Program-made: the position numbers and the translations under genes
NCBI GenBank assembly: GCA_037974665.1
Contig: CM075764.1
Coordinates: 79,500,325-79,564,324, forward strand
Direction: 5' to 3'
Origin: Ehretia macrophylla
Lineage: Eukaryota; Streptophyta; Magnoliopsida; Boraginales; Ehretiaceae
Length of the DNA: 64,000 bases
The notes under the pieces: generated by a model
Seen by the model: only the letters and a program-made list of their open reading frames with translations
Told to the model about the DNA's origin: nothing
The model's database searches: none
Shown: positions 5,075-48,139 of the stretch, one piece after another
Numbering within the stretch: position 1 is the first letter of the stretch
Layout of the letters: each line of letters opens with the position of its first letter

Positions 5075-7571
5075 TATGCTTGTTCATTTCCCTAGTTGCA
5101 AGTTATGTATAATTGATAAAGCGCTTGTACATGTTAGTATATGGTCAAATAATAAGAGTTATGGTTGATGAGAACTGACACCTAAGACATTCTTAAAACT
5201 TGTCTTAGGTCGAAAGATTCATCGAGATTGGACATTATGAATCCCTTAAGGTGGGCATGTAGTTAATCCTGCCTAGGTTGATCTTATCAACTAGTGACAT
5301 GAGATGTCAAGACTAATATATACATGGGTACGCATAGAGATACGTACACCGAACATGGTCTGCCGAGAACTCTTAATGTGGGCTTTATCTGCCTAAGTCA
5401 ATAGTAGGTTCTCAGGTTATAGTTATGCAAGGCACTCCTTCGACTTAAGGATGCCATAATTGCTTGAAGGTAACTCACTAACTTTGACCTTGGACAAAAG
5501 GGAGGAAGATAAGATCTATTTGAATAAGGATCGGATGCAGTCAAATACTTGCAAAACTAATGAGTATCGTTGCAAAAATTCACTACTCTAGATGAGAGAA
5601 AAAATATCATATGTTGTTTTATAGAGATGTTGACATAAGATTTGTAACATTTGGATCATACAAAGAAGGTCAACATTGTGTTCTTATTTTAAAAATGAGA
5701 AGATTAAATAATGAAAGGATCCAAATTTTCAACAAGTGGACCAAAGAGGGGATGATCTTCCATTTGACAATAAGATCAACCCTCGGGAAATTCTACAATC
5801 CGGGGTGCGATAAACGGGGAGGGAGCAGAGGGCGATACTTGGTAGTAGGTCCCGCTTCAAGTTAGCATTTTAGAATTATGATAAAGCAAAATAAGTAGTT
5901 AAATGACATTTACGCCCCTGAATAAAGGAATTAGACAATTAATACGTTCTAAGTGATTTTGACTCGCAAACCAATATAAAATGCACACATGTCAATGCGA
6001 AAAGAGTAGAGCATTTCAGAATCAGATTGTCCATTATACCCTCATGAAAAATGATCGGAAAAGCCTTAATAATCATCATAAATATAACATTGAAATGACC
6101 AAAATGGGTAAATAATAAAATAAGAATTTTGTGTAAAAAGACGAAAAGACCCTTGACATAAAGTGGAATTGTGAGAGAAGATGAAATTATCCTTAGGTAT
6201 CGAAAATTATTGAAATAAGTTTCGAATTGCGCACGTGTGTTGTATCTTCATAACGTAAAAATGTTGAAAAAGATAACCAAAAAACAAATGTAAGATAATA
6301 TTTTACCTTAATTTTACATTAACAAGATCATTTGTCGAAGATGAAGTGATACGGGCAAGAATTTGTATGTTAAAAAATGAAGAAGAAAGAACAAAAAACT
6401 TGTAATTGAAATTATTTTTTTCGTAATCGAGTCCCTATATACCGTAAATTTGAACATGGTTAAATAGACAATAAAAATAGGTTGACATAGAAATTCTCCT
6501 TTCTTACATCATATTTTATTTGATTTGTCATGTTAAATGAAGAAGAAAGGAAAAAGAGGTGAGTATTGAAGTAAAGTATGTCTGAGAAGCTTTGTCATAA
6601 TCCAATTCAAATAAGGGTATAAACGTAATTTCGTGTTTTGAAAGATTTTTTGTGTCAAGGATAATTTAGTAAATGAATTCTCTTTTTTCGTGTTTATGAT
6701 TATGTAATATTGGTCTTTTGATTTACCAGTCTCGGATCTGGATTGATTTGATTAATGTTATATATGGCTTGATTTATTTATTTTCTAATTACCTGTCATT
6801 CTATTATACTTGTAGTTAATAATTTGATCGGTATTCTTTTCTGCCATATATTCATCCTTTAATAGTGAATTTACTGGTTGTACCGTAGTTTCTATGAAAT
6901 TATAGGTTGTACCATAATTTCTACATTTGAAATTATTAATTGCTATTTTTAGTTAATTAGCCTAGTCACTTATGATTGTGTGGACAAATCTATACTCTGG
7001 CTAGATAAATGACACGTGGATAGAATTGTACCTATAGTCAAGGCTAGACCGGTAATTGACTAGACTTAGATAATTAATCAGATTAAGAGCTTGCAGCCTA
7101 ATCCCAATATTAAATTAGAGAATCCTATTTCGTAGCCTAGATCATTTGCCTTAGTACTAATCCGAGCTTTAGAATATTTTTCCGTATTTGTAATCCCAAA
7201 TCTAGATTAATTACATTTCTTTCTTTATTTTATTTAATCCAAACCCAAAAATCTATCATGTTTTTCTTTTCAACACTCACTTTAGGCACGTTCACACACT
7301 TGCACCGAAATATCCTTAGGAGCCTCTTTGTGGATTCGACTTCGCACTCAAGCACACTACACTGCATTGATTCGTGCACTTGCGGATTTAAACTTGGTTA
7401 ATTTTGCACTCATTTTATACACCGACCGAGTTATGATCAACGAGACTCCTCTGCCTTTGTCTTTGAATCCTTAATAAACATGGCTAGGTTTGCTATTGCT
7501 TATTCTCTTGATAGATTAGCCAAAAAAAAGCTTCAAGACTAGCAACGAATATTGTGCACCAAGATGAACAT
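5075..7571. other. AT-rich intergenic stretch, no gene seen
   Basis: No credible coding region was found. An ORF at 5611-5865 (+) is without recognisable motifs. The part at about 6390-6690 is repeated in diverged form at about 12460-12950. The part at about 7280-7450 is less AT-rich and looks like old LTR-type sequence, but no edges or paired copy were found. Confidence 0.4.
6390..6690 (+). repeat. Diverged direct repeat, copy 1
   Basis: Shares several blocks with 12460-12950, including CGTAATCGAGTCCCTATATA, a block reading CAATAAAAATAGGTTGACAT, and a later ATAAGGGTNTAAANGTAATTT block. Order and spacing of the blocks differ partly between copies. The family is unknown. The two copies lie on either side of the LTR element at 7572-12389. 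Confidence 0.6.
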
Positions 7572-7881
7572 TGTAACGGCCCGATCCCTCATGAGACCGG
7601 AGCCGCGATCCAAAACCCCATGGCACGAAAAACGAGAGAAAACAGGTGGAGCTTCCTCACGCGCGAGACATGAAATGCACATTCCAACAATGAACGAATA
7701 TATTATAGACAGTATTATTCAGGGGAAAAATATCAAATTCAGAAAATAAAGCAGTTTAAAATTTTATTTGGGCTCACTGTAAACATAAATTTTTAAGCAA
7801 ATAAAGGTCATATAAGGACATTTATGCAATTATGATAATTAAATATAATAAATAAAAGTCTCTCTGGGCTTGGGCGTTATA
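7572..7881 (-). repeat. 3' LTR (short form) of the LARD-like element
   Basis: About 310 bp, matching both ends of the 3.6-kb LTR at 8780-12389. It is followed on the plus strand by the complement of a purine tract (7882-7893), which marks it as the 3' LTR of a minus-strand element. Confidence 0.75.
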
Positions 7882-8765
7882 TTCTCTCTCCTTAAACAAA
7901 TTGCGCCCTCGCAAGTTCTTATTCAATAACTCTATCTCGGAAAACTACCAATCATGATTGATGAAAATCAATACCACCATGTATTCCAATGAGAATACCA
8001 AGAAGAACTCGCCCAAAACATTCCAAGAAATAGCTCTGAAGAAATTTCGATATGAATACAAAAGGATATGCCAGAGAGAAATCCCAAATAAGAGTACCAA
8101 ATAAAGGCAGTATGAACACCAAATAAAGGCTCCAATAAAGTAATCCAATTTAGAGTCCCACATATGGTTATCGAGTAAGAAGTCCAAAGAAAATACCAGT
8201 TAGAACTCCAAGTGAGAATCCCGAAAGAAAATACCAAGAACATACCAATCAGTGTTATCGAGGGTTGAGTATCAAGTCTCGAGCAACAAATATCATCCTC
8301 TATTCACCATAAACCACTGATCATTTGACCTGCTTTTGCTAGTCCACTTCTGAGGAGGTCCGCTACTAGCCGACTCTTTCAGGGGGAGAAGATTACTTAC
8401 CATTTTCAATGGGTAATATATATATGTATGTAAATGGAAAGCATATAAGGTACATATGTGAACAAGTATAATACAGAAGGCACTTATAGTCATATATTCA
8501 TACACCTAACATGTTCTTCATATTTCACATAAGCAATCCACCTAGAAACACATTTTTATTCAAGTTACACATAATCACATAGCTATATATATATAACACA
8601 ATCTTCATATTTCACACAAATGTATCACATATGAACACATTTCACTCAAACAAGCACAGGCCTACAGGCAAGCACATACCTAATCAAAGCATGCTTCACA
8701 TGCACGCACTCGGGGTTTACTACCCCAACAGACTGAGGACCCTGTCCTGGCTAAGAACTAACTAA

Positions 8766-13100: not shown

Positions 13101-13903
13101 ATCACCAACCACAATAAAAATCAAAGATTGACAATGCCCTTCCCGTTTCTCGACACCCTGTTATATAGAACGCCCCTGAACCCTCGCACCGCACCATTCA
13201 AATGGGGTACTATCGAATGAGTATTTTCTCTAGAGAGGGAGGCTTTTAGTAGGCCCCGTGAAATTCCCAACCCTCTGCAACCTGCATCAATCGCTAATGA
13301 GCACGTCACCACAATGTTACTCTCCGTTTGGCAATTTGCTTTCATACAAGTCAGTCACGCCACAACACATCATTCGCCATCGAAATCGACGTGCTCTACG
13401 TTAATGGTATGTTCGGAGAAAAGCACGGAGAACTCCTTTTTCTTCACGTGGGACCCTCCTCTTATCATTTTCCCGCCTCTTGTGACCCTACAGTCATCTC
13501 TCTGACTCTACACTTCTCCACTAAGGCAGAACCAGCTGTATTCACATCCAACGGCCAGAAATTCACTAGAGGCCCCGCGCATCACCAAATGCTTATTTTA
13601 ACGGTCCAGATCTCGTCAACAGTCTTCAAATCTGTGTCAGACCTTCAGTGTTAGGTCACCTCTCCCCCTCGATCCCCTACAAAACACACATTTCACGCAC
13701 GAGAACACACTCTCTCACTCTTTACTATATATCTGAATAGACAGACAACACACGCACCATCTCTCTCTCTCTCTCTCTTTCACTCTACATATACACACAT
13801 GTATACATATATAAATGTGTGTATGTGTATGTATCGATAAGCTTTGAATGTGTTGGTTTACAGTAGATGATATTGATATGTGAGGGTTTTGTTTTGGAGA
13901 GAG
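13100..13903 (+). promoter_or_regulatory. Promoter and 5' leader of the SET-domain gene
   Basis: This stretch is clearly richer in GC and in CG dinucleotides than the AT-rich DNA to its left, as expected just upstream of a constitutive plant gene. A TATA-like sequence, CTATATATC, is at 13724-13732. It is followed by a (CT)n tract at 13760-13778 (CT-rich leaders are common in plants), then the first in-frame ATG at 13904. Short open frames at 13314-13654 lack motifs and are not called as genes. The transcription start is inferred, not seen. Confidence 0.5.
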
Positions 13904-16900
13904 ATGGAAAATTCCACGTGGCAGAGCAAATGCGGACCGTCGATGTGGCAGTCATCGCTGCCTTCATCGTCGCAGCTTCATTCACAGCGACCGGACAATG
14001 AGGTAATTGTTTTCTTTCTTTTTTTTTTCTCCCCTGAAATTTCTTCATTAACTTTTGATTTTAGCTTAAGTTTTTGTGTGTTTTTTTCTTTTTTTATTCA
14101 CAATGCTCAAGTATAAATGATGCTTATCTGCAAAATGTTGCTTGTGTTGATTGGTGATGAAGAGCAGGGAGCTATTGTGTAGTTGCACATTTGTGGTTTT
14201 CGTGCCCTCAATGTGGTTCGGAGTGTTATGGCTGGTTGTACTTTTTGAAATTAGGTTAATTTTTTTGCTTTAGGCTAGTGATAATTGTACTTAAATCATT
14301 TTATGTTGTCACATGTTTGCTTAGATTTAAACATGTGCTATATTCCTTGTCGTGGCAGTAAATATTCAGTTCATGTTCATAATAACACTTGAAGATTTAA
14401 ATCAATGCTTCGTGCATTATATTCTTGTGCTCATGCTCGTATTATTTTTTCGTGATGTACAGAGATGTGAGTTGTATGCAATGTGTCTGGGGGTAATTTG
14501 GTATCTTTATGTTAGAATTTTGTGTAATGATGCATTTGAGACTTGTTATCATGTTTAATTGAAATTTTTACATGAATATCAAATACTTCACAGGGAACTA
14601 GTTTTTTGGTTTTCTGTTAATAACAATAAGATTTCAAGGATACGTAGGTTTTACCACCAAGTCCCGTTGTGGCTGGCACTCGACTCTTTTCACATTATGC
14701 AGTTGATGTATGAATTTTTCCATCAACTTTTGATTGAAGTTTTCAGGGAAAGTGAATTTTATTTTATTTTTTCAAGCGATTATTTAGAACACTTGACTTG
14801 CCACTAACTTGAGAAAAACAATCAGCACTTTTGAAGTTCAGTTTCAGTGATATTGAGATTTACACACTAATTAAGTCAGTATGTGATGAAAAATGATAAA
14901 TCAGTAAATGAGCTGTGGCTACTAAAAGTTAGCAGTACCGGTAAGGCTATATATTTTCCCAAATGGTTTTTATGTTTATTAATTTGTCCATCTTTTTAAT
15001 ATGTAGATATGCTTGCAGTGCATCCAGTCTGTCTTGAGATTTCTCGACTTCACTATCGTTTTGCATGTTTGACTTATTTAGTTGATCAGTGATTGTATAT
15101 ATTAGGTAAACAATCTCGGAACATTATGATGTACCTCAAATTCTTAATCATAGTACATCTGTTTAAATCATGACAAAATGCAAATTCTCAAATCATTAAG
15201 TAGGCTGTGGTCCCAATTTGGGAAATCAAGAATCAGGACAAGGACCATTACTTTGATTAATTCTTCGGCACATCCTCAGTTGATTTTGTTGTCTTAAAGA
15301 GGCATGTTGTGTGGTCTCTTTTCCGCTAATGTTAAAGTTGTGGATGTCATTGTTACTCTTAGTTATCATGTGTATTAAAAATTGATATCAAATTTTCCTA
15401 TTTTATAGATTTGAAGTCAAAGGCCATTTTTTTTTCTTTATCAACAGGAATTAACTTCATCAAACCATAGAATGGTACAAGAAGCCATACTTCTGAGGAA
15501 TTCAAATTTAGATTTTGGAAAGTCAGGCTGTTCTGAGCTAGGAAGTTCATTTTTATCTCTCCTTTCGCGGCCACCATCATTACTGCAATGTGATTTACAA
15601 TTATCACCGAGTTTGAAGTCAATTATTGCCTCCAGTAACACCCCAATCAACAGCAGTAAAGCCAGCGATTTTGCCTCTGGAATTGAAGTTTCAATTCCAT
15701 CTTCGGGGCTATTGACACCAAATCCTGATAGGCAGAATGCAGAAGCTGGAGCAGATTTTTCCTCAAATTTTTCATCCATTCCTGTGTCTGCAAAGTGTCT
15801 CACCGGATCTGGTCTGAACAATGTCTTTCCAGTTCCAGGCTTAAATTTTCAGAAATCTGAACTGATGTTGCCAATTATTAACCAAAAGGGTCCTAGTACC
15901 GAAAGATCAAAGGAATTATTTTTGTTAAGAGAGGGATCTATTTCTAATAACTTTACTGGAAATATTGGAAATGTCCACAATGGCACTAATGTTTCATCTG
16001 TGTCTCGCCAGTCATCTGCTCTTTCAAGTGGGTGCCTACGTGTATTCTGCTTGGGCATAAGTGAGAGCTTGAAACTTCATCAGATCCTTAATTTAGAGTT
16101 ATAGATCTATATATATAATTGACAATCTAGATACATTGCAGATTGTTTATGTACATTCTAACAAGTTTATCTGTTATTTCTACAAGGTGGGTACTTGCTT
16201 CTCAGCAGTGCTGGACTTCTTGGAGTTGTTTGCTCGTGCCATGGCATGCATATGTCTGTTTCAAACTTCTCCAAGGTGATTACTTGCTGTTTATTCCTGC
16301 AGTAATTGCTGCCTCAAAGCATTCTATTTCCCTAAGTTAAAGAACATGCCTATGTCATTTCATAAAAGTTGTTTCGTTGAAATTTGTGTTACAGCATTCA
16401 GGTTTATGTAATGCAAATCCAGGGGTTGCTGTTTTTATGGGCAGTGGTGAGACAATAGCTCAGTGGCGGAAGGATCACTTCGGGAAATTGGGGGTACAGT
16501 TCACCTGAAAATTTTATTTTTGATTTGTGGCTCCTCTAGAATCTGAGCTTTGATATCCTAAATGCATTTCTTAAAGCACTATCTTTTACCCTATCTTTTG
16601 GGATGGGAGAGTTAATTAGAAGACACTAACATGATTTCTGATTGTATTAAGAGGTACCAACATGATTTATGCCTTGAGAAGTCCTATTATCACGTTTGTT
16701 AGGGTGATCCTTTATTTACAGTAATTGCTGATTCTGGTCTGTAATTTCTATGTTAGTATTTAACCACAATGTTTCCTTATGTCCACTGCTTCTAACCAAT
16801 GCAGTGGTCCCCAAGTTTGTTTGATCAAGTTAGTGAACGAAAGCATCATCTAATTCTAAATTCTAGTAAAGGAATGCTCTTGAAACTGGTTGCCACTGTA

Positions 16901-19900
16901 TCCTTGTAGTTTATTTAGATTGAACATCAACAATCTGTCGCGTTAATGAACTGCTATACCTAAAAGGTTAGGGATACCTCACTATAGAAGCTTTTCTCTG
17001 TATGGGACATGTGATAACATGTGTCCAAACTCCAAAGAATAATGAACTTGTGCTTGATGATAATGATGGTTACAAGGTGCCAAAACTCTCAATACCACTG
17101 ATGACAGCATAGTTGACTGCTCATGTAAGTGAACTTTCTGATCTTGTTTAAACATTCCAGGAGAAGTGCATGCTGCAACTCATAGATAGTGTTATTGATA
17201 CTTGTACAATAGTGCCATATCCATTGAAATTTTATATCTAATATGTATTCAAAATAATACATGCTATGTTGGCTTAAAGATATTAGTGATTCTGTGATTG
17301 TTTAACTTTATGCACTGACATTGTTACTAAAATATTCTAAACCTAACTCACTACATCAGGGATATCAGAATTTGTAATTTCTATCTGCTTTGATCTAAAA
17401 CATTGAAATTACAGTTGGTGATACTTTTATCTTTTTGTTAGATTAGCATTCCAGGAGATTATAGCGGATGGGACTGGTCTGATGGAATTTCAGTAACTGC
17501 TGGTAAACTTGGTCCAACACTTCCTGACATATCCATATGTTCTGATGTCTCTCCTCAAGTTAGTTCCTTTGGAGCTTCACAATTTTCTGGGCAATATCGT
17601 AATAATGTTGCTTTTCCGGAACATCCAAAAGTTGGTTGCCATGTGGTTGATAAATTTTTACATGAAGAGAAACAATTACAAGGTCATAATTTTCTTTTCA
17701 AGGGCTTGAATAGCACTACGTTGAGCAATTATGATTCTGTGACAGATAAAAAGGTGATGAGTCGTGTGATGACTGGTGGTTCAACAATGTCGAGTTCAGT
17801 TAGTGTGAGAGGCACAGATAATGTTTCTCAGTCCACATCAGGTTACAAAGACAAAAACTCTAAGTTCTGGAACTCTTCTGTTTCCTTTCCACAGAACCAA
17901 AAATGCCCTGGAAAAAGTTTCAATGCTAGGAAAGTTGAGGGGCCAATTGTGTATAGAGATTCAGTTTCCTCTAACTTTGAGTTGAGACTCGGGCAACCGT
18001 CAGTACAGAGTCGGGCACTGGAAAGTTCAAGTCTACTTGCGTCTGGTTCTAATCAGATTGGGGCACCCTGGGAGGCCAAAAGTTCAGTGTTAGCAGACCA
18101 GCTTCCTAAATGTATGTTGATCTATGTTTTAATTATATCACATATATATATATGTATATGTATATATTTTATTAACCCCATTCATGTTTCTCAATGTAAT
18201 CTGTTCTCTTGCTTTCCACACACCCCCCCCCCCCCTCTCTTCCTTCTCCCCTCTTTTGATTTTTGTCTGCAAACAACTGTACTAAATCATTGCCTCTGAA
18301 TTTCTGTGCAGTGGACAGTTGCAGGGATGGTATATCTCAGTCCATTTTGAAAAGAGAACAAAGCCGATTTTACCAAAATCATTTACCTGGATGCTATAGT
18401 TCAACATATGCTTCTCAAGTGGATCGATACGAAGGTGACATTGCTGGGGTTTCAGCAAATCCATTGTTGCTTCCGCATGGAAAATATCATGAGGAAAACG
18501 TACATCTTAAAGGTACTAATGACGTAATGAATGGCAATCATGCTATGGCTGGGAAGCACCTTTGTGAATCCTATATTGCTAAGGGTGACAGTTTTGGTTT
18601 TCCTTGGGTTAGTGGCTGCAGAATGGACAGAGAATCCAATAGTAATGCATTATATGGTGAGAATAAAAATGGTGAAGGAGTGGGATGTGCTCTTGATAGC
18701 TCATGTATTGCAGCTGAACAAAATATTAGTTACTCCACAAAGTTTAAGGAAAGCAGTTTTCCTAATCAATTTATGTGGGGGAGTGGTCATAATAGATCAT
18801 ATTTGGAAGATAGTGGCCTAAATACACGGCAGTTCTCTAGCATGAAAGTTAATGCATCTGATATCGAGTGTCTTGGGAAGATTTCCTGCCCTGAGCATCA
18901 TGGATGGTCTGGTCATGAATTTCCTAAAACAATCAGCTCATCTATAGATTCTGGAATAACTTTGGCTTCTCAAGCATTGGTAGTAGCTTCCTCCCGTACC
19001 AATTCGAATTCCATTCATAGTCCAACTCTTGCCTGTTCCAACAAGGGCAGTATTTGTGCGAGACAATGTTCAGTGCCTGACAGTCTGCAAATGTTTGCAT
19101 CACAGCAACAGCATACACCGGAGTTCCCCAATCGTAATCATTCTAGTGCATCCATTGAGACCATTCGTGATCAATATATGTTCAGGAAATCGTATGATAA
19201 AACACAGGTTTCCATTGCTTCGTCGACATCAAAAGGGCAATATTGTGGGTATCATTTTGCAAGCACTCCATGTGCATCTGGAGTTGCATCAGAATTTCAC
19301 ACCTCCCGTCTTGCTTACTGGATGGGTGCTGATAAAGAAAAATTAACTCCTGTTGCAGGTATATTGTTTGGTCCTTCATTTTGTATAATGGAGAAAAAGG
19401 ATTGTTTTAAATGGTTCTTGTGTGTTTGCTATACCACATGATGCTAACAAAAAAATTTGTGCCGATTTAGGATCAACAAAACATCGCCACTTCTCAGGAT
19501 TATCTCAAGGAAAGTCTTTGCCCACTGGAGGTGCCAAAATGCAGTGCCAACTCTCCCATGTTATGTATCCAACTGAACGGCCTTTATTAAGGTGACTTCG
19601 GATGACTGCCATATGTCTTACTAATGACTTTAGATTATGATAATCTTTCTCATGACTTGTATGGCTCATCTCCAAAATTTCCATTTTATTGTTCTAATTG
19701 TGATTTCAGTTAATAGTTTGACAGTCATGTTTTCAATATGTCAATTTAAGGGTGCAATCTAGTTGGTATAGTACTTGTGCAAAATATCACCACCATGTAA
19801 AAGCTGAGGTAATTTTTTATGAACTTAATTAGCTAAACTTTTCTGTAGCATGTGTGATTTGTGAGTGCAACTAGACTAAGGTAGCCATTGGTTGGCCTTG

Positions 19901-22900
19901 ACTCGGGCAAATGTACATTGTAGTTATGTTTTCACATGCAGTGCCATGCCAAATATGTGTGTGGAAAGAGGATATTTTTTCTTTTCCTTGAAAAACGATG
20001 TTTAGGGGTTTAGAATTTGTTTGTCATGTGCAATGTGTTAGGATAGGATTTGGCAAAAGAACAGTGCATCTGCTCAAAAAGTCCACTTACAAAACTTAGG
20101 CTCAACAAGTGGAGATGAAAATGCTGAGTTAACCCTTATATCTAGGACTTCCCTCTAAGATATGACTAGCGGAGTCATGACATGGGAATTGAGTCATTTG
20201 AGCTTTAGAGGATGGTGATGATTGTACATGTTCAACGCTGTGCCTTCTGCGCTTCACAATAAATGTTGACCTACATGTTGCCTCTAATTGTGTTTCTCTT
20301 TCAACAAACTTGCAGATTTAGTGGAAGCAAAGATCAGATTACTCTTCCAAGTCTACCAGGAAAAAGCTTTCAGGCAGAGCCATACACTAATTTTCCAACA
20401 AAGTGCAGCTGTGCCACAAAGACTACCGGTGTAGATAAAAATTACTTCAAAGATGGAGCTTTAGCTACTGCATTGAAAGAACTGGGAGGCAATGCTGCCG
20501 GCGGGGCTGCAACTTTGTACGTTTCAAATGTAAATGAGATGTACAATTATCCAAATGAGAGTTCTTTTCAAAATAGAGATCTACTGGGGCAAAGGATGAA
20601 GAAAGTTGAGTGCACTTCCTTTCAGTGGCGCGATGTGCCAAGAAAGATGGAGGAAATGTGTGGTCGAATGACTAAAGAGCAGCAAACTGGTTCAGTCAGC
20701 AAGAATGGGGACGATGAGGGGCGTACCCCAAATGCTGTAGCAGCTTATGCCAACTGTTTTAAGACATCTACTCAAGATGCTGAGTTACTGAAAGAGCAAG
20801 AAATGTCTAATATTTCTTCAGGATGTTCTGCTCCTGTTGTTACTCAGATATCCATTGGAAATGATAACAAAGACTCACCTACTGTTGATGCTGTGGATAG
20901 AAGCTGCAGGAACAATCTTGTAGTGGATGAAGGATCAGGAATTGAACGATGCTGTTCCTCAGATGATGCACTTGACAGTGAACTAAGTGCTGGCTTCTGT
21001 GGTTTTCCTTCCGTAATCAATTCAATGGATGTCAGATCAACTGAAAGGACTCCTTCTGAAACATCACGTAGTCTCATTGATGAGCTTAGACTCAGAGACT
21101 TGTTAAGATTGAAAAAAATGCAAAACCAATGCCCCAGCTTCACCATCCAGGAAAAGAGCAATCATACGCAAATATTTGAGATATGCTCAAGAAAGAGAAA
21201 GAAGAGAAGAATGATGAAGTGGAAAAGGCTAAATGCATCTTTTCCTCCCTCTAGTCAATCCATTGCCCAGAAGGGATCTCTAAAATGCATAGGCAGTAAT
21301 GAGTTGCACTCATATGCATTCAAAGATATGGGGATGCTTCTCCGAAATGATCAAGAAAGTTCAAACAATTGCGCTTGTTCCTCAGAACCAAGTTCCAAGC
21401 GTAGAAAGTCTGCATTATCGCCTTCTGTCATATCTCTTGAAACAAATTTTCATAGAATTAATCACCATGGAGGTGTGTACGTTGATAACCAGACAAAGAA
21501 AACAATCAATCATGATAATTTTGAAGCTCCTGAAGTGATAAGAAGAAAAAGATTAAGGTTAGCAAGTGCTAATCCAACTTCTAATGAGGTGCATATTAAT
21601 GAGTCAAGCTCTGTTGGTGCTGAAGTAACTGGGACTTCATCTGGTAATGAAGTTAATATTCATAAGTCGATTGCAAGGCCTATAGTATGTGGGAAGTATG
21701 GCATCATTTCTAATGGTAGCCCTTCAAAACGGGCAAAAATTGTATGCATGAAGAAGATCCTTATAGCAACAAAAAAAAGCTGCCTCTCTGAAAATGCAAA
21801 AACGAATTTTAGTTCAGTGAAGAAGTTTAAGAAGAGTAGCAGTACCAAAAGCCGTGGATTCTTCATTGAACCCTCTAGTCTTGAGAAAGACGTACATAGT
21901 AGAGGCCGAGACGGGGTGGCTAATAGAGCTGAAAGTTCTCATGTGTTATTGAGTGAATTGAATCCACAATGTTCTTTAGGTGAAACAGAGATAGCATGCT
22001 CAAATAGCAGTAAGGAATGTGAGAGTTTATCACGTGTCATAAAGAAGAGAAGTCATGACAAGTTTGATGAACAACATAGTGCTTGGAACAGTTGCCCAAC
22101 TCAGCTGAAGCCAAAATCTAAGGAGATTCGCGAACGCAGTCTTTATGAACTTACAGCTACAGGTATATAATACAAGCATTACGTTGTTCTTCACAAATTG
22201 AGGAAATACCTAGTGTCTATTCATCTTTTTGTAGGACTCTTAAGTTAGTTGCTACTGAGAAGTTGCAGCCTGTGTCATTGCACAACCTCAATTTCAAGTT
22301 GGCTAATTTGCATAATAAACATGGATTTTTTCATATAATCCTCATGGGAAAAAGCATTGCAGAAGTTACTTTCAGTAGTTTGTTTAGCTCCTTGAGTTCA
22401 TCAGATAACTCCTTTGTCTAGTAATTCTTTTATGCCTTTAAATTGTTATGCATTCTTCCCATTGCTTTACTCTTCATTTCCCTTTTGGCAGCATTCATGT
22501 GCAGTCATAGGTTTTTATGTTTCTTATTGGTATGTACAAACTGTGAGTCGAGCCCAAAGAGCTTAGCAGCACCTATGGGTACTAGAGCCTGGAGGTACGT
22601 GCTGAACAGATACTGATATTGCCTATTCATAAGTTGCCTGCAGTGTATAAAAAGGCGTAAGGTGCCAGGGGGTCCTCGTGCCTAGGTGCAAGGCGAAAGG
22701 CGAAGGTGCGCGCCTTAGTGAAATGAGGCGCATTTCTTATACTATGATAAATAAGCTATAAAATCAAAGAACTATGTAAGATACTAAAATAGAAGCTTTA
22801 ATTAGATAATACTTTAACTAAAACACATCTAAAATATATATATATATTCATCAAAAAGCATTACATTATATATCATTAGTATTATCAAAGCATCATAAAA

Positions 22901-23744
22901 TCCACAAAAAATGAATGGTATCTATATCATTCTCTTATATCACATCAAAATAAGTTTAAGTCAATTATACTTGGCTACTAACATTCTATGTAATACTAAG
23001 TACTAAAAGACAAAGGATACTATTTCAAATATAATCATCATCTTCCTCTTGGAAGGAAGCAGCAACTCCATCATCATCCTCCCCATTTGATTGGTAGTCT
23101 TCATCATCCTCTTCTTCCAATATATCTTCATGTAAGGGTTGTCTTTTGTCTTCTTTTTCTTTTTAAGGGTTTCTTTGAAATATCTAAAAGTCAAGGGTAA
23201 TATAGTACTTTGCACACATACTAAAAAACGCGGCAAGGCGCGTTTTGGTCGCCTAGGCGCACCTTGCTGAAATCGCCTCACCTTAGCCTGTTAAGGAACT
23301 AAGGGTGCGCCTTGCCTCTAAGGCGCGACTTTTATTACACTGGTTGCTTGCCTTGCTGTTTTAATGGTTTTGTTACACTTACAGTATAGGAAAAGAAAGA
23401 AATATTAAACAAATGGAAAAAAATTGCACTATTGTGTGAATAGTTCCCATTGCAATTGACTGTTATGCACTATATATATATAGGCAAAGAATAAGGACCT
23501 AATTAGTTAACTGTGTGGAAAAATTTGTATGGTTATGGAACATTTTACTCTGATTAAGACACTTAGGCTCCATTTGTTTGATTTAAAATAACTTGCAAGT
23601 GAAAAATATTTGTGGGGGAAAATATTTGTCTAGAAAATAGAATATTTTTTGGTATTCGGTTGTCACACTGGAAAACATTTTCTTGTGTTTGGCTGTCACA
23701 GTGGAAAGCATTTTTCGGTGAGAGATTTTTATAAAGGCATACAA

Positions 23745-23813
<69 letters not shown>

Positions 23814-26800
23814 AACACACACACATGTATTTATGGGTGGTGAGGGTGACGGACGGACGGACAGGTGGGTGGGTGGGTGGGTGACGGGGGCTGCGGTAGA
23901 GTGTGGAGTGGAAGATGTTTTCATCTTCCAAACATCTCCCACTCCACTTCACTATACATTTTCCTTTGACTGAAAATATTTTTTAGTTGACCTTTACCAA
24001 ACATTGGAAAATTACGAAAACATTTTCTTCGAAAATATATTATGGCAAACAAAAGGAGCCTTAATGGTTGCTTAGAAGTATGCCAAGTCCCATTAATAGC
24101 AATGCCATCATCTGTCCAATGTTCCCTTCGTCATCTGTTATAAGGTAAGTCGGTACTACAATGTCCTTTAGCGAAATCCTTAACTCTAATTGATTTTGTT
24201 GATCTTGTTGGCAAATAGGTATTTATTTTCACTAAGCTCGTTTATCTCTTGGGATATAATATTTTGGAGCTTGGGTTATCTCATGTTATATGATAAAATA
24301 TGAATATATGTTGAAATTTATGTCTCTTTGGATTTTCTTTTACCCCCTCCCATTGATTACCATTTCACTCATTAAAATCTTTGCATTGGTAGGGAAGGAT
24401 TCCAGCTCATTGAACTTTTCCACGGTAAAAAAATCTACACCTGTATGGCAAAGAAAAAGAAGATATAATGGGAAGCTTGTAAAGAATGCTGCAGATGTTA
24501 TACATAATGCTAAGAAGTATGCACTCGCTATATCCTAATTGGAATTTTTTTTCTTAATTTTGCAAAGAACTCGAAATGTAAAGCTTGTGGAGGTGTGTTT
24601 ATGACTAAAACACTTGCAGATGCATGAAGGAGGACCACTACAAATCTGCTCTGGATTCAGGCTCATTGTGTTGTGTGTGTGGTAGTTCGAACAAAGAGGA
24701 ATCTAATTACTTGTTGAAGTGCAATAGTTGTTCCATTAAGGTACTTTTCCTTGCATGGTCTGTTTATTCTTGCTTTCAAAGTTGAAGCTGCCCTTAATTT
24801 TTCAGTTGATTTCTTTAGTTGTTCTTGTTTGTTAGTGCTGATTAACAGATTAGCTTTCAATAAGCAGGTACATCAGGCTTGCTATGGCATATTGAAGGTA
24901 CCAAAAGCTCATTGGTATTGCAGACCATGCAAGACAAGTTCAAAAGATATTGTAAGAGATTGAATTCCAAACTCCACCCTGAAATTTTGGTTTGATGAAG
25001 TGTTGCAAAGTTGCTTCCATTAATGTGCTAGAATTTTAGTTGTAGCCCAGGAATGTGTTTGATGTAAATGGACTGTAACTTTGCTGGTTAACTTTTGATT
25101 ATTCTGTTAATTTAGTGAAACTAAATGGAAGTTGAATGTGAAGACAAAACATTTGCTCCATGTTATCTAAATTTCACCACAAATGCATTGTACTCTCCCA
25201 TTATAATCATATAAGCTGATGATTATTTGCATGCCTCACACTTGAGGGTTTGAAGTCATTGTCAGTAACAGTTAGTAATGGTCATATGAATGGTTAATCC
25301 TCTTCATTTAAAATATCTTTTTCACATTACATTTAGTGACTGTCTATTATGTATTTCTCTTTCTTTCTTTTCTGTTTTTTCTTATGAAATTTAATTTGCA
25401 TACCCTACTTTATCTTATAAAAGCAACTCTTCAAACTGTTAGTTAAAATGCAAAAAGAAAACAAAACGTGCAAGATTCATTCACCAATCCTTGGTGCATT
25501 TTGTTATGACCTGCCGATTATATCATCTGATAATAATTTTAATTTTGCACATTCTGAATGCAGTTCAGAGGGATTTGTGGAGTCAGAGGAATGAAATATA
25601 GTCTTAAAGTTACGATAATTACACAGCCATTGTTAATGGAGGGATTGGTGGAGTAGATGTAGTTGTCCTTGTCGCTTGTTCAATGAAACCCTGCTATTGA
25701 AATGATTAAGAGGAGTTATCCTGTCCACGAGAAAGCACATGACATCACTGTGTGAAACTGAGCTTCAATTAGTGCTACTATGACCGCTGTTGTTGGGTTG
25801 ATGATGTAGCTCCATGAAAAGCCTACAGAAGACAGATCTCTCTTGCACTGGAATAGTATTTTGCTGTTTTTATGTCTATACTCGAACTTGAATTCAAATA
25901 AAATCTTTTTCATTGGTGGTTGGGTTAAATGTTTGGACAAGATATAGATTCGGCTACGGTGTAGAATAAAGTAATTTGACCAAACTAAACCAAACCAAGC
26001 CCTTTCCCACTATGTTATTTCATGCAATATATCCTGAGAAAAATCTTTGTTTAAAGTTTTGCTGCTGGTGAAAAGTGTGCTATTCTTTTGACATAATTGC
26101 TGTACTTTTTTGTGCTCATTTATAACATCTTTACAATATTTGATCACTCAAGATTTGCAATTTGCTGGCTTTAGGCCTGTGTCCTTTGTGGTTATGGAGG
26201 AGGGGCCATGACTTGTGCACTGCAAAGTCACAACATTGTAAAGAGCCTTTTGCAAGCTTGGGACATCGATTATGAGACTAAGGACACAGACCCAGTTTCA
26301 TCTAAACCATCAAGGAATCAGTTAAACCTGTTGGCTTCTTCAAATTCTAGAGCAGAAGATGACACATTTTCAGTTATTAAAGTGGCAGACTCCCAGTCAT
26401 CTTTGTTGCTTCTGGGGAACATGGATCTTCATTTGGAAGATGGTGATTCCCTGTCTTTTGCCCATGATTCAGTAGTGCGCAATAGCATCACTGCTGGAGC
26501 TCTTGACCCTACAGTCAAGCAATGGGTTCATGTGGTTTGTGGGCTTTGGACACCTGGAACATGCTGTCCTAATGTTGATACAATGAGTGCTTTTGATGTA
26601 TCTGGAGCCATTTGGACCAAGTCTGATGTGGTAAGATTTGAAATATTTTATAGTTTTGAGTCATGTATAATATATGATGGCTACAATTTTGGACTGTTGT
26701 CTGACTTTTCGATTCTGCTTGAAAGTGAATATTTATTAACATTGAAGTCATAGAACAAGATCATAGTTTCTCTCTCTTTTTTGCTTCTTTCATACAGTGA

Positions 26801-29800
26801 AGCGTTTTGCTTTATCATCCCCAGGTTTGCTCAATATGCACCAGACCAGGTGGTGCTTGCATAGAATGCAGGGTTGCAGATTGTTCTGTTCACTTTCATC
26901 CCTGGTGTGCCCAGCAGAAGGTTTTGCTCCTCTTTTTATCTTGTAATTCCAACTTCCTTTTTTGGAGATATTAGGTAATTTAGTCTATATGAAAGTTGTT
27001 TATACAAGTACTTAACAAAAAAAAGTTGTCTATTCAAGTCTCTCTGAGGATGATCTAGAGTCTTAATTTACTGATGTCTGGCAAGCTCTAACTTTACTGC
27101 TTGTGTGATTTTCCGGCTAGAAGTCAAGACAGTTGAAGATCTGATGAGGTGCATGTTGAACTTGATATTGCTAACAGGAAAAAATACTCGTTCTCAATTT
27201 AACTAAGCCTTAGAAGGAAAAGCTTACTACATTCTAAACTTCAATGGTTAAGACTAAGGATGCTTTTGGCCTGTTTTTTTTGGGGTCAAAGAGCATGTGT
27301 GAACTCCAATTGTGATTTCGCGAGTTTTTGGCTCTCGCAAAACGTGATCTTTTTCTCTTGTGATTCTCAAAACACGTGTTTGCCAATGCAAGGCCAAGTA
27401 GGCCCTTGATCTATCCTAAACAAATAAACTGACGTGAGGATGATTTATGAAATTTACTTGCGGAGATTGCTTTTTGCTCTCCACATATATTTTTCTTTTT
27501 GACTTCTCAAATTAGATATAGCTTTAGAACATCCCAAATTGGAAGGCGACAGGAATTTGAGCCCCAGATTATATAGGAGGCTACTTGGAATCTCTTTTTA
27601 TACTACTTTTATCCAATTAGCCAAATGATTATTAAAGCATAGGTAGTGAGTTTCTAAGATAATGTTATCTTGATTAGGTTTCTGTTGTATATGGCTTTTT
27701 GTGGAAAACTTTGTTATTTCTTTGTTTCCTTCTCCACCGCTGTATGTGGGGGCTTTTCATTCACCTTTTTTACTTTTGAGGTCAGGAAAAATTTATAGTC
27801 ATGAGGAATTTTTTTTGTTGGAGTAAGATTTAATACATCAAGGTAAATCGGCACTGTGACATGCCTGATAAATGGAGGACAAGTGATTTTATGAATAGCT
27901 TCAGAGTATATAATTTTCGCCAAGTTTTGACTTGCAGCTCAAGTAGAGTTTTCTCATGGAAATGGTAATACGCTGCTGCTGGAGTTTATCTATTACTTTT
28001 GAGATAAATGCTTGTTTACCTCTTGATTAAGAACTTTGCAGTGATTGAATTCACTAGACTGATACATAATTAATTTTTCCATTCAACTTAGTGTTTAGGT
28101 GAAACTTAATGTAGAAGTCATTTTCTAACTTAAATTTCTTGTTCTAAATGAAGTAAAGTTGACGAATGATCAATTGTCACAGGTACAAAGATGAACATGA
28201 ACACATTGAAATGATTTACGAGCCTTGCTGTGAACTGCTAACAATTTAAGTTTTCTTGGTTGCAGGGTCTGCTGCAAAGCGAGGTCGAAGGTGGTCATAA
28301 AGAGAATGTTGGTTTTTATGGAAGATGCATGGATCATGCAACACTCAGCCAGTCTAATGCTGGTGATTATCCTACTGAGGGAGAGAAGGAATTTACCTGT
28401 GCTCGAACAGAGGTTTGTTTTAGACTGAACAAAGTTTTAGATCTAAAAATAGAGTGGGAGATGCAGTCTTAACTGTTAACTAAATACAAAGCTCTATTGT
28501 AATTAGGGTTACAAGGGTCGTAAGTGGGATGACTCTAAAAGTATTCTACCTCATTGTCCTGATCGTAGCAATGGATGTCATGTTCCACAAGAGCAGCTAA
28601 ATGCCTGGCTTCATATTAATGGACAGAGATCATTCCCCGTAGTGCTTTCAAAGTTTTGGAAGTCAGAGATTGAGTTTGATTATCGGGTACGAAGTTAATA
28701 TAATTTATCAATTCAGCTATTTGATGGACACAGATAAAATTGTACGTCGTAGAACCTTCCATATTTGCCACTAATTTAGTGTTTTGGGTTCCTCATATCA
28801 CTTGCAGAAAGAATATGCTCGCTACAAGCAGTCAAAGGGTTGGAAACATTTGGTAGTTTACAAGTCTGGCATACATGGTCTTGGTCTTTACACATCTCAG
28901 TTCATTTCTCGTGGTGCAATGGTTCGTCATCTTTTACTACTTTGGTGAAATTCTTTAAATTGGATATAGCAGTTGAACCTTTTTGTGATCTCTTTGAAGG
29001 TTGTCGAGTATGTTGGTGAGATAGTTGGGCTCCGGGTAACTGACAAGAGGGAAAGCGAGTATCAAACTGGAAAGAAACTGCAATATAAGAGTGCTTGCTA
29101 TTTTTTCAGGATAGATAAAGAGCATATCATTGATGCCACCCGCAAAGGTGGAATTGCTCGTTTTGTGAATCATTCGTGCTTGGTAAATACCTCTCACTCA
29201 AAGATCTATTCCAATCCTACAGGCAATGAAGTTTCGAAAACGAAATCGTTGCTGGTTGATGATGGAACTAAGATGCATCTGAAAGACTCTGCATCTTTCC
29301 GAAAGGAAAAAAAAAAAAAAAAATTTAGAGAGCATATGAAGTCAAACAAGAAGTATTTACAATTATTCAAAAGCTTAAGAATTCAATCCTTATGACGTGT
29401 TAATTTGGAGAATTATGTTACGGATTTGGTTCCCAAATCGTTTAGTACCTTGTGCTGAATGAGATTTGGGGTTGTAGAATATGCTCGACTCACTTCTCTG
29501 TTTTTGTTGCCAGCCAAACTGCGTTGCCAAAGTAATTTCTGTAAGGAATGAAAAAAAGGTACTATTGTGCATTTTTATGTTCTCTCTTACTCTCTCTCTC
29601 TCTCTATATATATATATATGTGTGTGTGTGTATATATACATACATATATACATATACATATATATTGTTTTTTTTTTTTTCCTTTGTCAAGTTAATTTAT
29701 ATAGTTAAGACGGTGCAGGTTGTGTTTTTCGCTGAGAGAGACATATATCCTGGAGAAGAGATTACATATGACTACCATTTTAACCACGAGGACGAAGGTA

Positions 29801-29853
29801 AAAAGATTCCATGTTTTTGTAATTCCAAAAATTGCAGGCGTTATCTAAATTGA
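13904..29853 (+). CDS. Trithorax/MLL-type PHD-ePHD-SET histone lysine methyltransferase, 18 exons
   Basis: Exons by GT-AG sites and phase: 13904-14002, 15448-16041, 16395-16493, 17442-18111, 18312-19358, 19471-19591, 20316-22162, 24393-24516, 24620-24740, 24868-24951, 26175-26630, 26825-26920, 28266-28412, 28507-28686, 28808-28921, 29000-29182, 29514-29558, 29719-29853. They total 6,162 nt (2,053 aa) with no internal stop. The first ~1,200 residues are Ser/Asn-rich with no known domain. Basic clusters (SRKRKKRRMMKWKR and RRKRLRL) in exon 7 suggest nuclear import. A PHD finger (~1551-1600), an extended PHD (~1603-1808) and SET plus post-SET (~1908-2053) follow. By family knowledge it would methylate histone H3, probably K4, on chromatin. 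The exon 2/3 junction is ambiguous (16039/16402 also fits in frame). The start is the first in-frame ATG. It resembles plant ATX proteins only in its C-terminal modules; FYRN/FYRC and PWWP were not seen. Confidence 0.9.
18223..18240 (+). repeat. Poly-C / CT tract in intron 4
   Basis: A run of about 14 C followed by CTCTCTTCCTTC lies in the 3' half of intron 4 (18112-18311). It may act as part of an extended pyrimidine tract before the acceptor at 18311. Confidence 0.7.
22641..23342. mobile_element. Non-autonomous hAT element in intron 7
   Basis: The 702-bp element opens CAGTGTATAAAAAGGCG and its far end reads, in complement, CAGTGTAATAAAAGTCGCG, giving imperfect terminal inverted repeats of the hAT kind (CAGTG). 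The flanks are GTTGCCTG (22633-22640) and GTTGCTTG (23343-23350), an 8-bp target duplication with one change, as hAT elements make. Both ends are GC-rich with CGCCTAGGCGC-type motifs, while the core is AT-rich with no transposase. It is in intron 7 of the SET gene and is presumably spliced out. Confidence 0.88.
23566..24060. mobile_element. Tourist-like (PIF/Harbinger) MITE, copy 2, in intron 7
   Basis: Begins GGCTCCATTTGTTTGATTTA and ends, in complement, GGCTCCTTTTGTTTGCCATA. It is flanked by TTA on both sides (23563-23565 and 24061-24063). It shares its ends and its AAAATATTT-rich inside with the MITE at 4639-5071. A long CA/TA microsatellite and a GGAC/GGTG tandem array sit within it. Confidence 0.85.
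23747..23880. repeat. Microsatellite cluster (CA)n(TA)n and GGAC/GGTG arrays
   Basis: (AC) repeats at about 23747-23775 run into (AT) repeats to about 23810. After a short spacer come three GGAC units and four GGTG units near 23850-23880. They lie inside the MITE of intron 7 and create false open frames on both strands. Confidence 0.95.
24620..24951 (+). other. PHD finger module (exons 9-10)
   Basis: Exon 9 encodes CCVCG, then CNSC, and exon 10 continues VHQACYGI and WYCRPC. Together these give the C4HC3 zinc ligands of a PHD finger, about residues 1551-1600 of the protein. PHD fingers of trithorax proteins usually read histone tails. Each exon is in phase with its neighbours. A Lys-rich segment encoded by exon 8 precedes it. 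Confidence 0.9.
26175..28412 (+). other. Extended PHD module (exons 11-13)
   Basis: Exon 11 opens with ACVLCGYGGGAMTCA and closes with WVHVVCGLWTPGT. Exon 12 gives VCSICTRPGG, CIEC and HFHPWCA, and exon 13 ends the fold with FYGRCMDH. This is the pre-PHD zinc knuckle plus atypical PHD seen in trithorax, MLL and ATX proteins. About 85 residues of acidic, Ser-rich sequence lie between the first CxxC and the WVH block, longer than in animal MLL proteins. The module covers about residues 1603-1808. Confidence 0.9.
28808..29853 (+). other. SET and post-SET catalytic module (exons 15-18)
   Basis: Exon 15 holds SGIHGLGLYT, exon 16 VEYVGEIV, FRIDKEHIIDAT and RFVNHSCL, exon 17 (45 nt) PNCVAKVI, and exon 18 EITYDYHF plus the Cys-rich post-SET CFCNSKNC and the end RRYLN. 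All S-adenosylmethionine and catalytic motifs (GxG-like HGLG, NHSC..PNC, DY) are present, so the enzyme looks active. Intron 16 falls between Leu and Pro inside the NHSCLPNC motif. Confidence 0.95.
29587..29666. repeat. Mixed CT/AT/GT microsatellite in intron 17
   Basis: Consecutive (CT)n, (AT)n, (GT)n and ATAC-type runs fill the middle of the 160-bp intron between exons 17 and 18. Length changes here are likely and lie very close to catalytic SET exons. Confidence 0.95.
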
Positions 29854-31040: not shown

Positions 31041-31065
31041 GTTTATATATATAGCCACTGCCAGG

Positions 31066-31747
31066 GACAGAGAACTTAGTTCCACTTGCAGCTGTTCATC
31101 CAATACCACCAATGGCTACTACAAATTCTCCTCTGGTAACCACTGTGGCAACAGCCATACCGGCAGTGGGCATTCCACCAAATTTGGCCTCATCATCTTA
31201 GACAGTGGACCTGTCGACCTTAGTTCAGATGTTCTACAGCTCTTAGGGGGCAATGAACCAATTCTTGCAAACTCGGGCTTCAAATCCTATAATTGGATCG
31301 AAGTATCGAACCTAAAACCATAGTTAGGTCACGGCCCGACAAAAGACTAGGTCAAGAATAAGAGAGCTCTTAACTGTTTCAAACATAACTTTAACCACTC
31401 AAGATAAGGGTGAGCCTAGTTCTTCCATTCTCGAGGCTATGGGTCCAGAGGTGAGGAGAACGACCCCCATGATCATTGTGGGACAATTCCACCGAATCAG
31501 GGGCACAACTTCACCTATAAAAGGACCATTCTAACACTTAAAGAGGGTATCTAACTCTAGCTTCGCATACTAAATTACTCGTTAAGCTTTTTATAAGTTC
31601 TTTGTTGTCCTCATAATTGACTTAAGCATCGAAGTAGGACTTTAGGCACCACCCTTGGGTCCTTTGTTTTGCAGGTATCTTGCTCGGAATCATACCTGCC
31701 CAGTTCGAGGAAGCAGGTCTAGATCTATGTTGCTAGCCCAATATAGT
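31066..31747 (+). mobile_element. Ty3/gypsy fragment (gag start joined to LTR-like sequence)
   Basis: Bases 31066-31290 match 36300-36520 closely and encode the same gag opening (around ELVPLA and TVDLSTLVQMFY). From about 31297 the sequence resembles the end of a gypsy LTR: it holds TATAAAAGGACC near 31517 and a CA-rich end near 31740. The fragment lacks most of an element and is an old, broken fossil. The TRIM begins directly after it. Confidence 0.55.
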
Positions 31748-36184: not shown

Positions 36185-37201
36185 ACTTTAACAGTTTGGT
36201 GCCGTTTGTGGGAACGACTTGATCATCCCATTGATAATTTGACATGGTACACACAAGAAGCTAGGCTACTGGTGACATTAGACCCACCCAAGATGACCAA
36301 CCACTACTAGGGATAGAGAACTTAGTTCCACTCGCAACTGCTTATCCAATACCACTTGTGGCTATTACAAATCCTTCTCTGGTAACCATTATAGCAACAA
36401 CCATACTAGTAGTGGGCATTCTACCAAATTTGGCCTCATCATCTTAGGCAGTAGACTTGCCGACCTTTGTTCAAATGTTCTACAACTTGCAGGGGACAAT
36501 GAACCAATTTTTGCAAACTCAGGGCCTAGCTGCTCCTGCAGTCCCAGGAGCAATATCAGTCCACCCTCAACTGCTCATCCTCTATCGCAAAATACACCAA
36601 GGACAAGAGGCCGACCTTCAGCCTTTAAGCAACCAGATGATGATATAGGATCGATAGAGTAGATGGATGGACTAGAGAACACCCGGACTCAATTATTAGC
36701 TACTAGGTTCGAGGGACCAGTAGGTTTCGCAAGTCCGCCATGAACAACATCAGCGAGAAACAAGCCGCTCTCAAGAAAGATCCAAGAAGAGTCAATTCCT
36801 AAATGGTATAGTTTCCAACCTTGCCCAACTATGATGGAATTGTAGATCCTGAAGATCATTTGCCGATTTTTGACCACTACATGAATTTCTACGATGTGTC
36901 CGACCTGATCAAATGTAAGACCTTCTAAACTACTTTGGTCTATCCATCTCGGAGGTGGTTCTCAAAGCTACCAACAGGATCTATCAAGAGTTATGAGGAC
37001 TTGTATAGAGAATTCCAAGACCGATTTGCCAGTAGCAAACATCCTTCTAAGCTCACAGCTTCGCTACTCAATATCAAGCAACAGAAAGGGAAAACACTCA
37101 GGGAGTTTACCCAGATGTTCAATTAAGCAGCACTTGATGTTCCGAATATACAACAGCCAATTGCTTTTGTGGCCTTTATACAGGGACTAAGGTCATGTTC
37201 T
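36185..37201 (+). mobile_element. Ty3/gypsy 5' internal region with gag start (fragment)
   Basis: TTTGGTGCCGTTTGTGGGAA near 36196 is the characteristic start of the internal region in Tat-type and related plant gypsy elements. It is followed by gag-like coding: MPTFVQMFYNLQGTMNQFLQ at 36457 and, at about 36935-37126, a gag core with SRRWFSKLP, SYEDLYREFQDRF and LREFTQMFN. The element is broken, in more than one frame, and its right side is cut off by copia element A at 37202. No matching LTR is adjacent on the left. Confidence 0.7.
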
Positions 37202-42134: not shown

Positions 42135-42545
42135 TCAATTCCCTCCTGATGAGAGATCTTCCGATAAGAATGTCACAGCCTGGTTCCTCCTATGTCTCCT
42201 CCTCCTCCTCCTCCTCCTTCTAATGTTTCTATTTTGGCTAGGTTTAGCAATAAAAGGAGAGGACTCGACATGGGGATTGGGTGCTGTACCCAAACCAAGA
42301 TTTTGCCAGCTAGTCAGGACATCTAGCAACTCATTCAGTGTGACCTCAATCCTATGTATATGTAAGTCCAAGATCAATGGAGAGTAGGATGGTAGAAGAG
42401 AGTGTATGATCAAATCTACCTGAAGCCAGGGATCCATGACGAAACCAAATGCCTCCAATTGAGTTACCAAGTAAATCATTCTAGGGCAATGTTGGCTCAC
42501 GTCACCCGCTTCTTCAAGTTTCATATTAAAAAGCTCACAAGTCAT
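42135..42545 (-). pseudogene. copia gag-like trace (downstream half)
   Basis: Reads like the UBN2-type gag core of plant copia elements: blocks CELFNMKLEEAGDVSQH, LEAFGFVMDPWLQVDLI and VTLNELLDVL align in order with the family pattern for the middle of gag. A run of Arg codons follows. The upstream half lies at about 44190-44345, on the other side of a solo-type LTR. It is part of the broken element B. Confidence 0.7.
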
Positions 42546-47999: not shown

Positions 48000-48139
48000 G
48001 ATTGAATTTCACTCCCTCACGTGTTTCACTTAACTCACTTGGCTTTTACCCTCTAATAATCTCACACACACTGCCGTTTACCACTCGTATTCTCTTTCAA
48101 GCCCCTAGAACTTACCAAGAATACCAAGCAGCGTAATAA

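Follow-up and report, generated by a model that had tools for sequence, protein, structure and literature searches.

Does the trithorax-like gene in a 64-kb stretch of the Ehretia macrophylla genome belong to one of the ATX groups of plant methyltransferases, or does it represent another branch of the family? The gene lies at positions 13904-29853, on the plus strand, of the 64,000 nucleotides analysed (contig 1, CM075764.1; hereafter the window). An original prediction, drawn from the letters of the window, had placed it in a separate plant trithorax lineage. Our analysis of its domains, its relatives and the published surveys indicates that it probably encodes a KMT2 (trithorax/SET1-type) histone H3 lysine 4 (H3K4) methyltransferase of plant class III-3, which would act in a COMPASS-type complex, read chromatin through a PHD pair and be recruited by a Tify-domain-binding domain (TDBD). 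A separate lineage is thereby supported, yet it is one already known in outline.

The gene is real. Rebuilt exon by exon from the window, it consists of 19 exons separated by GT/AG introns with consistent phases, and its spliced frame of 6,270 bases including the stop codon encodes 2,089 amino acids (aa) with zero internal stops. The start at 13904 and the stop at 29853 are both identical to those first proposed, and a single in-phase frame does reach the post-SET motif. The earlier chain of 18 exons and 2,053 aa, however, has to be corrected to 19 exons and 2,089 aa; omitting any single exon of the new model never yields 2,053 aa.

The C-terminal part of the protein carries the catalytic and reader modules. 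A Pfam search of the full protein listed seven families at E <= 1 (its filters remove most matches above about 0.1), and the PHD, extended PHD and SET modules initially described were all recovered. The SET domain (aa 1955-2064, E 4.1e-25) is of the KMT2 type and is followed by a post-SET motif at the C-terminus; the protein has NHSC, GEEITYDY and the full set of post-SET cysteines. A 176-residue region around it retrieved 122 different PDB sequences at E <= 0.001, and among the best 60 of these the closest is KMT2A (9.8e-43), then KMT2B, KMT2D/C and Set1, then SETD2 (2.9e-24). Extra residues are found around GKKLQYKSA, where seven other KMT2 rows of the alignment show a gap. The PHD finger (24669-24933, aa 1587-1632) matches PHD_2 at aa 1599-1632 (E 9.7e-8) and, slightly below the cut-off of that family, PHD at aa 1587-1631 (E 1.1e-4); an overlapping C1 match (E 0.009) is also below its cut-off. 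The extended PHD (26499-28337, aa 1747-1846, with introns within) matches zf-HC5HC2H_2 (2.4e-15) and zf-HC5HC2H (9.8e-14). As BRPF1 and Jade-1 top the 20 PDB sequences retrieved with the pair at E <= 0.01, and are also the closest kin of the PHD finger among solved structures, we read the pair as a PHD-zinc-knuckle-extended-PHD module. Between knuckle and extended PHD lies an insert of about 92 residues (26223-26498, aa 1655-1746) that has no counterpart in the BRPF1 or Jade-1 alignments; none was seen either in the inspected exons of the ATX3-like and ATX1-like genes of the same genome. Ahead of SET, and once only, the protein contains CARTEGY (28398-28512, aa 1867-1873, across the exon 14/15 junction), a predicted WDR5-docking motif that fits the general Win consensus. 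A strict Win pattern, picked after the sequence was seen, arose in 1 of 20,000 shuffles of aa 1847-1954 and in 87 of 20,000 shuffles of the whole protein. Upstream of SET, SAARCRVY and SAARCRIY are read by eye in the two ATX3-like genes of this genome, and GCARSGI in the ATX1-like one; none of the three fits the strict pattern.

The N-terminal half proved to be less featureless than expected. It contains a TDBD (PF16135) at 16216-16472, aa 248-293, with E 3.1e-13 and 49.9 bits against a cut-off of 23.6. The domain is divided in phase 0 across exons 3 and 4 by the intron at 16276-16394, and because each exon holds one half it easily escapes notice before splicing: exon 4 by itself matches at 6.3e-5 and 23.3 bits, slightly below the cut-off. 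The initial claim that the first ~1,200 residues are free of domains stands as far as PWWP, FYRN and FYRC are concerned, which are not among the seven listed families; an N-terminal half without any domain is ruled out by the TDBD. The core of this domain, CSCHGMHMS, aligns with CACHGSHMS in the 8t2i chain 'AFP homolog 2', a protein we take to be NINJA. The four best TDBD matches of the genome, found in long open frames (777-907 aa), have a CxCC core instead of CxCHG. The CxCHGxHMS core, shared with the 8t2i chain, is a hint of a TIFY partner, not a proof.

Which group of plant trithorax proteins combines these modules? GYF, CXXC and bromodomain are likewise not among the families listed for this protein at E <= 1. 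The combination of PWWP with FYRN/FYRC that characterizes ATX1/2 is not found among them, nor is the PWWP of ATX3-5, which both ATX3-like genes of the same genome have; and ATXR7, defined by a GYF domain and the lack of PHDs, does not correspond to a protein with PHDs and no listed GYF. What we find is a PHD pair with SET and post-SET, no listed PWWP or FYR, and a TDBD, which is the architecture of class III-3 in published surveys. The passages on this class in a Dendrobium survey describe a clade III-3 with one gene per examined monocot, called specific to those monocots, give PWWP and FYR as specific to other clades, and record Jas for DcATX3d and PeATX3d, 'in contrast with' rice SDG732 (OsSET37) (PMC6986063). 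These proteins resemble ours in their class III PHDs, SET-PostSET and, for the two orchid members, Jas; compared by description, the TDBD here is N-terminal. A Brassica rapa survey, in its parts on this group, assigns SDG732, which has two PHDs, to the ATXR7 group, where PHDs occur only in some monocot proteins. In the corresponding parts of an Archaeplastida survey, subclass III-3B is defined as PHD-PHD-SET-PostSET, to which DUF3839 and Jas may be added, and is recorded for Physcomitrella, Marchantia, Chlamydomonas and Volvox; neither 3A nor 3B is recorded for Arabidopsis, and rice is given 3A and not 3B (PMC5725981). By description this is the same domain set as in our gene, although those passages do not specify which species bear Jas. 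In potato, StSET45 is tabulated with SET and TDBD, a combination said there to be absent from the other species studied; it shares with our gene the presence of both domains in one protein, and differs in being tabulated without PHDs (PMC11069243). Class III proteins noted, in the passages describing them, as lacking PWWP (tomato SlSDG24, Medicago MtSDG4/5 and apple MD04G1028500) may be members of the same group. We infer that the 'Jas' of the surveys, whose passages name no model, is the TDBD, and the gene is probably a further member of the class III-3 or 'Jas domain' group, a kind apparently uncharacterised so far. Among titles and abstract openings in the open-access literature, we found no study on the function of any class III-3 gene. 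Arabidopsis AT1G77800 may be a relative; one paper calls it a PHD finger family protein and another PRE2, in passages that do not address this kinship.

The comparison with better known systems brings out both what is shared and what is not. ATX1/2 have in common with our gene the PHD pair, a KMT2-type SET, a Win-like motif and two SET intron positions; they differ by a PWWP, present in the ATX1-like gene of this genome, and by FYR domains according to the passages cited above (PMC6986063). They are not known to carry a TDBD. ATX3-5 share the PHD pair, the KMT2-type SET, a Win-like motif and one SET intron position, and differ by the PWWP, by the SET sequence (48-49% identical) and by the knuckle insert, of which the inspected ATX3-like exons show none. 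ATXR7 has a KMT2-type SET and one intron position in common; the Arabidopsis protein, as described in the Brassica rapa survey, has no PHDs and a GYF domain. Animal KMT2A/B, the best solved SET relatives, combine PHD, Win and SET, much as our protein with its Win-like motif; unlike them, our protein has no CXXC, bromodomain or FYR among its listed families, and its PHD pair is of the BRPF/JADE type.

To place the gene more closely, we searched the whole genome (1.58 Gb, 20 contigs). The SET family search returned 37 exon matches, 25 of which were inspected, the others being 11 on contig 14 and the window's own. Relatives were picked by tblastn over 26 loci and reading by eye, and named from their sequence: an ATX1/2-like gene on contig 14, a pair of ATX3-5-like genes on contigs 6 and 3, and an ATXR7-like gene on contig 11. 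PWWP was found in the ATX1-like and both ATX3-like genes. Reading the inspected stretch by eye revealed no FYR exons for the ATX1-like gene, so this name rests on SET, PHD and PWWP. A search with the SET protein of our gene gave 33 rows at E <= 1, five within the gene itself (77-93% identical) and 28 at 25-76%, of which the 76% row covers 17 residues of the ATXR7-like gene; our gene is thus single-copy at the sensitivity of this search. Two further features were seen in the genome: a copia-type reverse transcriptase-like frame between two exons of the ATX1-like locus (about 6650-8000, minus strand, by eye), and a cluster of 11 SET matches, two with an internal stop, at 54.39-55.56 Mb of contig 14, a local expansion of SET genes.

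Pairwise distances do not attach the gene to any of these relatives. Its SET domain is 49% identical to the ATX1-like, 49 and 48% to the two ATX3-like and 51% to the ATXR7-like sequence, as well as 51% to KMT2A and 46-47% to Set1. The ATX1-like and ATX3-like domains are 47-50% identical to one another, and the ATX3-like pair 86% mutually. Values of 48-51% are thus about those between groups, making the domain roughly equally distant from each plant group. Identities over the PHD pair, computed with most of the insert removed from this gene's row, show no clear nearest kin: 43% to BRPF1, 42% to Jade-1, 45% to an ATX1-like row that is incomplete, and 36-37% to the two ATX3-like genes. Three introns interrupt the SET region, at M|VVEY, L|PNC and K|VVF. 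The ATX1-like gene and the two ATX3-like genes share the M|V-x-E-Y position, the ATX1-like and ATXR7-like genes share C-x|PNC, and K|VVF is found in none of the four relatives.

The SET tree suggested with the original prediction was built from 10 rows and 146 columns. The gene adjoins the ATX3-like pair in the best tree with a support of 41/54, outside their own 100/99 pair, and only two of seven inner branches are well supported (the ATX3-like and Set1 pairs). The two outgroup rows are long-branched and do not group, and the ATXR7-like row has an end branch of zero length. None of seven groupings was rejected by approximately unbiased tests (p 0.248-0.414), even those with an E(z)-like or ASHH2-like row; two further groupings are already within the best tree, at low support. 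As implausible groupings also go unrejected, the tree shows little either way, and the case for a separate lineage rests on domains, distances, introns and literature. The proposal of such a lineage therefore keeps its support from the domain set, the equidistant SET, the private intron, the SET insertion and the single copy, and has to be qualified in three respects: the lineage has already been published, the tree rejects no grouping with the ATX groups, and the N-terminus is not domain-free.

From this architecture a mode of action can be proposed. The Win-like motif would bind WDR5 and hold the enzyme in a COMPASS-like complex, while the PHD pair would bind chromatin and the tail of H3. 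Where ATX proteins have PWWP and FYR, the TDBD may provide a dock for an adaptor, perhaps of the TIFY family, and so would direct H3K4 methylation to the genes that this adaptor targets.

Several observations weigh against the assignment to class III-3 with a TDBD-recruited enzyme. Kinship with class III-3 is drawn from published descriptions and not from the sequences of the named members, and the SET tree leaves the gene's place unsettled, neither proving nor refuting a separate lineage. The genome search found 25 TDBD matches at E <= 0.01, and the 24 other places all outscore the unspliced exons here, which rank last; the 8t2i match is weak (E 0.013). The Win patterns are post hoc and derive from a general consensus, and the looser one, also picked after the sequence was seen, arises in 1,740 of 20,000 whole-protein shuffles. 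The most serious alternative concerns the TDBD itself, which might well be a small nucleic-acid- or chromatin-binding zinc module rather than a TIFY dock, maybe as in other TDBD proteins. The CxCC core of the four best TDBDs fits this view, as does our guess that their open frames encode PHD/acetyltransferase proteins, in line with the Medicago Jas-RING-PHD-AT1 proteins as far as their report describes them; the CxCHGxHMS core retained here, as in the 8t2i chain, argues the other way.

Other readings change the nature of the gene altogether. It could be a diverged ATX3-5 (or ATX1/2) copy minus PWWP and FYR, in the way that tomato SlSDG24 was read as 'truncated' in the passage describing it. 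Its position beside the ATX3-like pair in the best tree (only 41/54), the intron positions shared with ATX1-like and ATX3-like genes and the 45% identity of its PHD pair to the incomplete ATX1-like row, the highest of all rows, would agree with this. We nevertheless consider it improbable: the SET domain is no closer to ATX1-like and ATX3-like domains than to KMT2A or the ATXR7-like one, and far from the 86% that links the two ATX3-like genes; the PHD pair is nearer to BRPF1 and Jade-1 than to the ATX3-like pair; and a TDBD with a long N-terminus is hardly a truncation. A simple copy of either ATX group is thus disfavoured by the identities, by the PWWP that the ATX1-like and ATX3-like genes have and by the TDBD found here. 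A catalytically dead scaffold is very improbable, as the protein keeps NHSC, GEEITYDY and every post-SET cysteine, and nothing in the sequence speaks for it. Least probable of all appears a fusion, in our model, of an N-terminal TDBD gene (exons 1-8) with a C-terminal PHD-SET gene (exons 9-19). The length of intron 8 (2,230 bases) might suggest it, and since StSET45 is listed with SET and TDBD and without PHDs (in the table of PMC11069243), published models of such genes do vary; but the exon 8/9 junction is in phase and free of stops, the orchid clade III-3 proteins are described as combining class III PHDs, SET and Jas (PMC6986063), and Jas is listed among the extra domains of III-3B (PMC5725981). 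The assignment to a class III-3 methyltransferase therefore remains the one we favour.

The modules are distributed as follows over the exons, all on the plus strand. Exon 1 (13904-14002, aa 1-33) opens with the first ATG after an in-frame stop (ORF 13877-14116) and is followed by the Ser/Asn-rich exon 2 (15448-16060, aa 34-238). Exons 3 (16187-16275, aa 238-267) and 4 (16395-16493, aa 268-300) hold the first TDBD half, with the CxCHGxHMS core, and the second. Exons 5 (17442-18111, aa 301-524), 6 (18312-19358, aa 524-873) and 7 (19471-19591, aa 873-913) lead to exon 8 (20316-22162, aa 913-1529), which contains basic clusters; one of them, CSRKRKKRRMMKWKR (21184-21228, aa 1203-1217), is a putative nuclear localisation signal. 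Intron 8 includes a (CA)n/(TA)n microsatellite at about 23746-23811. After exon 9 (24393-24516, aa 1529-1570), the PHD is shared by exons 10 (24620-24740, aa 1570-1610; first half) and 11 (24868-24951, aa 1611-1638; second half). Exon 12 (26175-26630, aa 1639-1790) carries the zinc knuckle, the insert and the start of the extended PHD, which continues in exon 13 (26825-26920, aa 1791-1822) and ends in exon 14 (28266-28412, aa 1823-1871), where the Win-like motif begins. Exon 15 (28507-28686, aa 1872-1931) is N-terminal to SET, exon 16 (28808-28921, aa 1932-1969) encodes the N part of SET and exon 17 (29000-29182, aa 1970-2030) its core, with the insertion around GKKLQYKSA and NHSC. Exon 18 (29514-29558, aa 2031-2045) precedes exon 19 (29719-29853, aa 2046-2089 and stop), with the SET end GEEITYDY and the post-SET CFCNSKNC.

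Transposons abound in the 3' flank, as indicated by two gag frames on the minus strand: a retrotransposon gag with zinc knuckle at 45912-48008 (Retrotrans_gag, 4.2e-19) and a copia-type gag fragment at 42138-42578 (6.1e-8). Further on, at 53387-60041 of the same strand, RVT_1 (4.8e-42), zf-RVT (8.8e-25) and DUF4283 (3.8e-28) frames belong to the remains of an element that we take to be a LINE-type retrotransposon; part of it is duplicated, the antisense open reading frames (ORFs) at 54409-54900 and 55597-56088 being nearly identical. Similar frames at 31042-31323 and 36297-36659 (ATARDRELSST.., PTTTRDRELSST..) are apparently copies of one repeat (by eye), and the latter has no Pfam match.

Knowledge of plant H3K4 methylation is largely based on Arabidopsis, a species to which the surveys, in the passages concerned, give no such PHD-PHD-SET gene lacking PWWP. 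An intact, one-copy gene that joins a TDBD and a BRPF/JADE-like reader to a KMT2 core suggests that a branch of the plant trithorax family has been neglected, and that the reports from orchid and rice, from potato, and from moss, liverwort and algae concern one family. A bolder and rather unlikely extension would see in it an ancient land-plant trithorax lineage with a TIFY dock, uniting the monocot, potato and moss/liverwort/algal cases, in which TIFY proteins of the JAZ/PPD type guide an H3K4 methyltransferase to genes under hormone control, or restrain it until they are degraded; such a lineage would have been overlooked because Arabidopsis has no SET gene of this type in the surveys. The gene may offer a direct link between trithorax-type methylation and TIFY/jasmonate-type signalling.

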